Program-made: the position numbers and the translations under genes
Origin: Fibrobacter sp.
GTDB lineage: Bacteria > Fibrobacterota > Chitinivibrionia > Chitinivibrionales > Chitinispirillaceae
Assembly (NCBI GenBank): GCA_012513915.1
Contig: JAAZBG010000152.1
Location: forward strand, 1 to 64,000
Direction: 5' to 3'
Length of the DNA: 64,000 nucleotides
The notes under the pieces: model-generated
Database searches by the model: none
Told to the model about the DNA's origin: nothing
What the model saw: only the letters and a program-made list of their open reading frames with translations
Part shown: positions 45,136 to 47,536 of the stretch, piece after piece
Layout of the letters: every line of letters starts with the position of its first letter
Position numbering within the stretch: position 1 is the stretch's first letter

Positions 45136-45147
45136 AAGGAATTGATC

Positions 45148-45498
45148 ATGGATAAATCATCAAAAGGACTTTACACGATTATTGGTGAAGGCTCATCATT
45201 TGAAGGAAAAGTATCTGTTCCGCATAGCATTCGTATTGATGGTTCTTTTAAAGGGGAAATTGAAGTTGAAGATGTTTTAACTATTGGCAGTAATGCTGTT
45301 GTCGAAGCAAATGTAATCGCACGAAGTATTGTTGTCGGAGGTACATTTGTTGGAAATATGATTGCAACGGAACGAATTGAAATGAATGCGAATTCTTCTG
45401 TTACCGGAGATTTAACAACAAAAGATTTAATAATCGATGATGGTGCATATTTTGAAGGAAGAAGTTTAAAAAGCAATAAAAAGCAGGATATTATTTGA
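45148..45498 (+). CDS. Bactofilin (polymer-forming cytoskeletal protein)
   Basis: A 116-residue protein almost wholly made of a bactofilin beta-helix: TIIGEGSSFEGKVSVPHSIRIDG..KGEIEVED and repeats with hydrophobic residues every other position (VVVGGTFVGNM, ERIEMNANSSVTGDL). Bactofilins polymerise without nucleotide and position cell-wall enzymes. The ATG at 45148 has AAAGGA 7 bp upstream; a TTG two codons earlier is the alternative. It is 12 bp after the M23 gene, so the two are likely one functional module. Confidence 0.93.
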   Translation: MDKSSKGLYTIIGEGSSFEGKVSVPHSIRIDGSFKGEIEVEDVLTIGSNAVVEANVIARSIVVGGTFVGNMIATERIEMNANSSVTGDLTTKDLIIDDGAYFEGRSLKSNKKQDII

Positions 45499-45653: not shown

Positions 45654-46130
45654 TTAAACATCCAGGTGTAGCAGCATTGCTGTTTCACCATCAGAATAAA
45701 AGTTTTTTCTCTCTCCGTCTTCAACAAAATTAAATTTATCATACAACGCTTTTGCAGGAAAATTAGATTTCCTTACCTCTAAAAAAATTGATTTAATATT
45801 CAGGATTCTGGTATCATGGAGAAGATTTTCGAGCAGAAAGGATGCCAGCTTTTTTTTAAGGAAATTCGGATGAATGCAAATATTTGTTATGTAAAGATCC
45901 GATAAGATCAAATAGCCAAAAATATATCCAACTAATCCTGATGTAGTTGAAGGAAAAAAAGTCGTATCAATACTTATTGCTCTATTGTAACCGTTTGTAT
46001 TGTTAATTTGGTCAACAATTGATTGCATCGACCATGGATATACATAGGAAGCTGTTTCGATTTGGAAAATTTCAGATACATCTTCAATTTTCACTTCGGT
46101 AATTCGACAGTGTTGTTTATCAATGTGCAT
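45654..46130 (-). CDS. GNAT acetyltransferase, RimI-like
   Basis: A 158-residue GNAT protein. An N-terminal VSEIFQIETASYVYPWS matches RimI (the conserved E..SF..PWS), and NFLKKKLASFLLENLL is a weak version of the acetyl-CoA loop (Q/RxxGxG/A: here HPNFLKKKLAS lacks both glycines). The C-terminus has the usual LEVRKSNFPAKALYDKFNFV...R..FYSDGE.A. RimI acetylates the N-terminal alanine of ribosomal protein bS18. The altered acetyl-CoA loop is unusual for the family and might lower activity. It is a single gene convergent with the bactofilin unit. Confidence 0.82.
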   Translation of the reverse strand: MHIDKQHCRITEVKIEDVSEIFQIETASYVYPWSMQSIVDQINNTNGYNRAISIDTTFFPSTTSGLVGYIFGYLILSDLYITNICIHPNFLKKKLASFLLENLLHDTRILNIKSIFLEVRKSNFPAKALYDKFNFVEDGERKNFYSDGETAMLLHLDV

Positions 46131-46300: not shown

Positions 46301-46316
46301 TGGTACGTAAATTGCA
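46301..46316 (+). promoter_or_regulatory. Candidate sigma-54 (RpoN) promoter
   Basis: TGGTACGTAAATTGCA fits the sigma-54 consensus TGGCACG-N4-TTGCA with one mismatch. The GG and GC dinucleotides have the required 10-bp gap. The expected start is near 46326, 25 bp before the ATG of the small gene at 46351. A weak sigma-70 alternative cannot be excluded. Confidence 0.6.
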
Positions 46317-46350
46317 TTTAAAAGGTGATATGATTTAAGTGAGGTAATCT

Positions 46351-46527
46351 ATGAATAAAATGAAAACGGACTTAATTTCTGAAGCAAGAGATCATTATTC
46401 TGTAATTTTCCCATGTGGTGATAAGGTATCTTTTGATGAATGTTTCACGAGTAACGGTGATCAGCTTTTATTTTGGTTTAACACTGAGGATCAAAGTACG
46501 CATGTAATGACGAAAACACTTTCCTGA
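46351..46527 (+). CDS. Small 58-residue protein of unknown function
   Basis: A short frame with a clear ribosome site (GAGGTAA, 7 bp before the ATG). It encodes 58 residues beginning MNKMKTDLISEARDHYSVIF, followed by a cysteine and a GDKVSF segment, an FTSNGDQLLFWFNTEDQS stretch and a basic end. The pattern of short strands (YSVIF, KVSF, QLLFWFN) suggests a small beta domain. I recognise no family. The sigma-54 type promoter just upstream and an EIIA-CBS gene just downstream suggest regulation by nitrogen or phosphotransfer signalling. Probably real, because of the ribosome site and coding-like composition. Confidence 0.55.
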   Translation: MNKMKTDLISEARDHYSVIFPCGDKVSFDECFTSNGDQLLFWFNTEDQSTHVMTKTLS

Positions 46528-46609
46528 TATTCTTCAATTGAAATATAAAATTAATTATATTATACTTATGCAATAAATCTCAATTGGTCAATTTTCCGGA
46601 GATAATAAT

Positions 46610-47536
46610 ATGCAATTAAGTAGTATAATTAACCCTCGCTTTGTTTATCTTGATCATCAATTCAATACGTATCAGGAAATTATTTCTTTTGTTGCCGAGA
46701 AATTTTCCAACGCTGTAAATATCAATTCTGAGGATATTAAGGATGCTCTTAACAAAAGAGAAAATCTTGGTACAACATTTCTTGGTCATTATTTAGCCCT
46801 TCCACATGGATATTTGGACAAAATCAACGATATCTATGTAATTTTCATTCGATTATCACATCAGATGTCGGTATCGTATAATAATCGTGATAATAAGATT
46901 AAGTATATTTTTGCTGTTTTGACATCAACTAAAAAAGCTCAGATATATTTAAAAGTACTAAGTGCAATTGCACATTTAGTAACAACTGATTCACATTTAC
47001 TTGACAACGCAAAAACGGGTAAAGAACTTATAGAGTTAATAGAAAAAAAGCAATTGAAGGTGGATGAAGGGCTTGTTGCATCCAACCTGATATTCACTAA
47101 TGTGTCAATTGACAATAATAAAACTATTGCTGAAGCGGTTGATGTCATGAAAAATAATAATATAACATTTCTTCCTGTTGTGGATTCTTCAGAGCAACTA
47201 CTTGGAATAATAGATCTTGCAGATATTTTTGCAGCGACATTCAAGGGCGAAAGTATCTCTGCAACAAGTCTGAGTGTAATTCATGATTTACGTTCAGCAA
47301 AAGAATTACTCTTTGAACCGATCCAGCTATTTTGGGAAAATGAGCATAAGCTTCTTGTCGGTGATATCATGCGAAATGCAGATACGTATACAATAAGAAC
47401 AGATGGGTCGTACTCTGAAATTGTTTTTGCCATGACAAAAAATCATCACAGATATCTCGTTGTTGTTGATAAAGATAATAAAGTTGCAGGCCTTGTTGAT
47501 ACCGATGACATTGTTCACAAGATGATAAGAGTTTAA
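46610..47536 (+). CDS. PTS EIIA (PtsN-like) domain fused to two CBS domains
   Basis: A 308-residue cytoplasmic protein. Residues about 1-150 are an EIIA of the fructose/nitrogen class, with the phosphorylated His66 in LALPHG and a VRLSHQMS-like strand. Residues about 165-225 and 250-305 are CBS domains (ITFLPVVDSSEQLLGIIDLADIF and HHRYLVVVDKDNKVAGLVDTDDI), which normally sense adenine nucleotides. There is no EIIB or EIIC, so transport is unlikely; regulation by phosphorylation and nucleotide is the natural inference. A ribosome site (CCGGAG) precedes the ATG. It is 82 bp after the small gene and shares its likely promoter. Confidence 0.8.
   Translation: MQLSSIINPRFVYLDHQFNTYQEIISFVAEKFSNAVNINSEDIKDALNKRENLGTTFLGHYLALPHGYLDKINDIYVIFIRLSHQMSVSYNNRDNKIKYIFAVLTSTKKAQIYLKVLSAIAHLVTTDSHLLDNAKTGKELIELIEKKQLKVDEGLVASNLIFTNVSIDNNKTIAEAVDVMKNNNITFLPVVDSSEQLLGIIDLADIFAATFKGESISATSLSVIHDLRSAKELLFEPIQLFWENEHKLLVGDIMRNADTYTIRTDGSYSEIVFAMTKNHHRYLVVVDKDNKVAGLVDTDDIVHKMIRV

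Follow-up and report, generated by a model that had tools for sequence, protein, structure and literature searches.

Organization of the Locus

The locus was studied in a 64-kb stretch of genomic DNA from a Fibrobacter sp., referred to in its entirety as the window. A sigma-54-type (−24/−12) promoter, TGGTACGTAAATTGCA, was read from the forward strand at positions 46301–46316, with an expected start site at ~46326, and is followed on the same strand by a Shine-Dalgarno-like GAGGT (46341–46345), also read directly, and by a small gene that encodes a 58-aa protein (46351–46527). The ATG of this gene lies 34 bp past the −12 box and ~25 nt past the expected start site. Farther downstream, a forward-strand gene (46610–47536) encodes a protein composed of an EIIA domain (PTS_EIIA_2, His66) and two CBS domains, as assigned by a profile match and by reading of the sequence. 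On the opposite side, a RimI-like N-acetyltransferase gene on the reverse strand (45654–46130), assigned by profile match and synteny, is a conserved neighbour of this putatively sigma-54-driven copy, and a bactofilin gene on the forward strand (45142–45498) ends an mnmE-mnmG-rsmG-parA-parB-M23-bactofilin block that is common to the syntenic copies.

The promoter reads TGGTACG-TAAA-TTGCA, with its GG and GC elements spaced by 10 bp as in TGGCAC-N5-TTGCW, and is the only zero-mismatch match to TGGYRYRN4TTGCW in the 64-kb window. Genome-wide, TGGYAYN5TTGCW returned 56 matches versus 20 for a reversed control pattern, and the latter figure corresponds to ~0.2 chance matches per 64 kb. An earlier note, made from the window sequence alone, had proposed a sigma-54-type promoter at this position; the exact spacing, the uniqueness of the match and similar sites in three syntenic relatives uphold that proposal, and a check of the genome found rpoN together with ~18 activators (18 strong sigma-54-activator domains). 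Upstream of the promoter in the window, no clear inverted repeat stood out as a binding site for an activator, and comparison of the regions upstream of the sigma-54-type sites in the same genome revealed no common activator palindrome.

The EIIA-CBS Neighbour

The architecture given for the downstream gene in the earlier note stands. The EIIA domain (PF00359, residues 6–146) scores 69 bits against a cut-off of 27, His66 is located in an LPHG motif, and the gene is neither fused to a transporter gene nor directly flanked by one. The protein shares this domain and its LPHG histidine with PtsN and other EIIA proteins but differs from PtsN in its fusion to two CBS domains, and an identification as PtsN (EIIA-Ntr) was rejected, as the scores for TIGR01419 (47.3 vs 138.7 bits) and NF008145 (48.2 vs 221 bits) fall below the cut-offs. 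HPr genes are present in the genome, one of them in the neighbourhood of rpoN, which makes phosphorylation of the EIIA-CBS protein plausible. A separate plain EIIA is encoded on contig C300. Searching the available literature for sigma-54 in these bacteria or for fusions of EIIA with CBS domains yielded nothing relevant.

The earlier note had further suggested a circuit in which the sigma-54-type promoter drives the small protein and EIIA-CBS as one operon, with the small protein as a partner or target of a phosphotransfer and energy sensor. The two genes lie on the same strand with an 83-bp gap, no terminator was found between them, and a sigma-70-like site in the gap is at chance level. In other bacteria, sigma-54 is connected with PTS-Ntr, and the HPr gene near rpoN is in keeping with such a link. 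Against this, the pairing is not conserved. Three full-length close orthologues of EIIA-CBS were found (in G005, G010 and G016), none of which has the small gene beside it; conversely, the three small genes in syntenic position (in G008, G010 and G016) all lack an adjacent EIIA-CBS, where the G016 contig ends ~370 bp after the small gene and its EIIA-CBS sits on another contig. In G010 and G016, EIIA-CBS adjoins the atp operon as well as an antiporter-like gene; in G005 it is near rimI, and the small gene is not there. The small family also occurs in many genomes that have no close EIIA-CBS relative. With the pairing kept at none of six informative relative loci, the two-gene circuit is unsupported and highly improbable, and EIIA-CBS appears to stand beside the small gene by chance. 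In G010, a 730-aa protein with an EIIA-like stretch (L207, 5681–7873) is encoded divergently from the small gene.

A Family of Small Proteins in Fibrobacterota

The 58-aa frame is a real gene that belongs to an undescribed, multi-copy family. When the 58-aa protein was used as query against its own genome and those of 60 relatives, 36 of these 61 yielded matches (a few only marginally); identities were mostly ~30–58%, and a genome often held several matches. With a profile, 35 of 168 Fibrobacterota genomes were positive; 33 of these belong to the order of the window, one to another family (G158), and one is marginal. The small frame is strongly conserved, and neither of two refuting conditions named in the earlier note, a genome lacking rpoN and an unconserved small frame, applies. 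Positive genomes carry 1–8 copies. A pattern scan of 84,980 species recovered 54 loci, nearly all labelled Fibrobacterota, with one Pseudomonadota locus (L088) and a few other bins. Searches of phages and plasmids gave no convincing homologues. Nothing in Pfam, NCBIfam, PHROGs or the PDB sequences matches the window protein meaningfully, one or two single members of the family show scattered weak profile matches (best E 0.004–0.09), and no functional homologue of the small protein was found.

The AlphaFold model obtained with a 58-row family alignment is confident, with a pLDDT of 95.2, and replaced a single-sequence model with a pLDDT of 62. The predicted structure is one small domain that consists of an N-terminal helix (residues 3–16) and four short strands (residues 19–21, 32–35, 38–45 and 50–56). 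No known fold stands out for the model (Foldseek best E 0.32; VIA-align Z ≤4.1), and the weak rows returned by the two programs comprise glyoxalase, sliding clamp and kinase lobes. A role of the protein in binding zinc or another metal was considered and rejected, as each of the residues C22, C31 and H51 gives way to another in some members. A conserved hairpin, F-W-F-N-T-x-D-x-S-T, is near-invariant across paralogues located at different genomic addresses.

Genomic Addresses of the Copies

Clustering of the copies by their neighbours revealed three recurrent places. The first is directly after ftsZ, in 14 loci that include a second copy in the genome of the window; the identity of FtsZ was checked. 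ZapA and SepF are small FtsZ-associated proteins, which the copies at this address resemble in size and in being encoded beside ftsZ, a likeness of position only, whereas the small family lacks any Pfam or NCBIfam match.

The second address holds about ten copies with sigma-28-type sites beside pdxA, csrA, fliW, flagellin and flgK (gene families checked in one of these loci). This subgroup is comparable to FlgM and to CsrA-FliW in that it comprises very small soluble proteins with sigma-28-type promoters in the same neighbourhood, but the family has no sequence match to them and is also found at sigma-54 and ftsZ addresses.

The third address is that of the window, after mnmG-rsmG-parA-parB-M23-bactofilin and near rimI, and is common to G008, G010 and G016. 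The copies in these three genomes have a −24/−12-like site 20–23 bp before the start, two of which begin with CGG instead of TGG and are weaker. Stand-alone sigma-54 copies have mixed neighbours, such as mutS-like and purB-like genes (identified by eye), that provide no functional clue.

Promoter Types and Sigma Factors

Promoter types, as inferred from sequence, were assigned to the 71 distinct copies. A sigma-54-type site is found in 20 copies, 20–63 bp before the start, and a −10 element CCGATA in 18, located 7–10 nt before the ATG and at exactly 8 nt in 14 of them; one copy has both. In most of the latter group a TAAA-like box lies 16–18 bp upstream of CCGATA, which together correspond to the sigma-28/FliA pattern. 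Neither site is seen in 34 of the 71 copies, ~20 of which are not after ftsZ. In a control with other ORFs of the same loci, a sigma-54-type site lies before 10 of 53 family copies as against 3 of 744 other ORFs (p ~2e-10), and a sigma-28-type site before 13 of 53 as against 0 of 744 (p ~1e-16); these p-values are optimistic because the motif thresholds were fixed while viewing the same sequences and because related copies do not count as independent samples, although the contrast is still very large. No Shine-Dalgarno sequence was seen before the sigma-28-type copies, and with the start site placed at about the ATG their mRNAs are probably leaderless. Labels of promoter and address cluster on the family tree (14 changes vs 32.4 when shuffled), a tree that the shortness of the protein leaves poorly resolved. 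Two loci, L063 and L082, carry tandem copies, the upstream one with a sigma-54 site and the downstream one with a sigma-28 site.

Sigma-54 and sigma-28 promoter types often drive motility and stress genes. In the genome of the window, FliA scores over its cut-off, and the FlgM gene is preceded by the same sigma-28-type site as the family copies. Sigma-54-type sites are also present before a flagellin gene, hcp, and nifB-like and gltB-like genes, the latter two identified by eye. Six further −24/−12 sites (L154, L165, L172, L164, L186 and L190) lie 38–150 bp upstream of genes for DnaK, ClpB, an M48 peptidase (HtpX-like), two thioredoxins and Hsp20, and may mark a heat-shock regulon under sigma-54 control in this group.

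These chaperone-associated sites are the argument for regarding the sigma-54 copy as a stress or proteostasis helper that groups functionally with the chaperone genes. Such a role would leave the sigma-28 and ftsZ paralogues unaccounted for, and the sites have no common upstream activator motif that could be seen; we regard it as improbable. Alternatively, the family might belong primarily to the late flagellar programme, with the sigma-54 copy serving the same role under another flagellar sigma factor. This reading gains from the sigma-28 copies amid csrA-fliW-flagellin and from the flagellin with a sigma-54-type site, and it could also draw on the near-complete absence of the family outside the order of the window, as flagella were lost in Fibrobacteraceae (PMC4704652). 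However, flagella are reported in Fibromonadaceae (PMC4704652), so that the absence of the family outside the order is not simply the absence of flagella. In addition, copies linked to ftsZ occur about as often and for the most part have no such promoter, and sigma-54-type sites of the genome also precede the chaperone, nifB-like, gltB-like and hcp genes listed above. We consider a flagellar-stage protein unlikely. Because the sites precede such varied genes, a sigma-54 promoter does not by itself fix a function.

Proposed Role of the Small Protein

The reading that we tentatively prefer, while holding it at a little under an even chance, is that the small gene stands alone as a sigma-54-type member of a lineage-specific paralogous family of small timing or adaptor proteins with a common partner, and that EIIA-CBS is an independent regulator located downstream by coincidence. 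The paralogues, each predicted to be one small folded domain, would bind one partner or ligand by way of the invariant hairpin, while their differing promoters would set when each is made: with the sigma-54 regulon, at a late flagellar stage, or at division. A single partner is suggested by the near-invariance of the hairpin across paralogues of different addresses, and we consider it conceivable, if somewhat short of probable. A more far-reaching version, in which the duplicated domain supplies interchangeable small regulators from sigma-54, sigma-28 and ftsZ-operon copies, the sigma-28 ones as leaderless mRNAs, so that motility, stress and division converge on one target, seems unlikely.

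This strongly conserved orphan family stands out for its unusual regulation, in which paralogues of one tiny domain are found under two alternative sigma-factor promoter types and recurrently after ftsZ. If the paralogues share a target, they would represent a simple bacterial coupling of motility, stress and division. The putatively leaderless sigma-28 copies also offer a testable prediction on translation in an almost unstudied phylum.

Outlying Members of the Family

A diverged subgroup, mostly with a longer C-terminal tail, is present in the genome of the window (contig C183) and in G001, G002, G004, G007, G011, G014 and G017. The distant loci L214–L221, of which L220 is the C183 copy, display the pattern MIDKEKTI...ECFF...FLFRTKDKKxHTMRA. 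The L088 copy, from a metagenome-assembled genome labelled Pseudomonadota, has a neighbour cluster in common with a Fibrobacterota locus, and its label may be wrong. Two IMG/VR viral contigs (L116 and L117) carry relatives of the small protein, and a further relative (L209, in G005:C10) has an integrase-like gene nearby.
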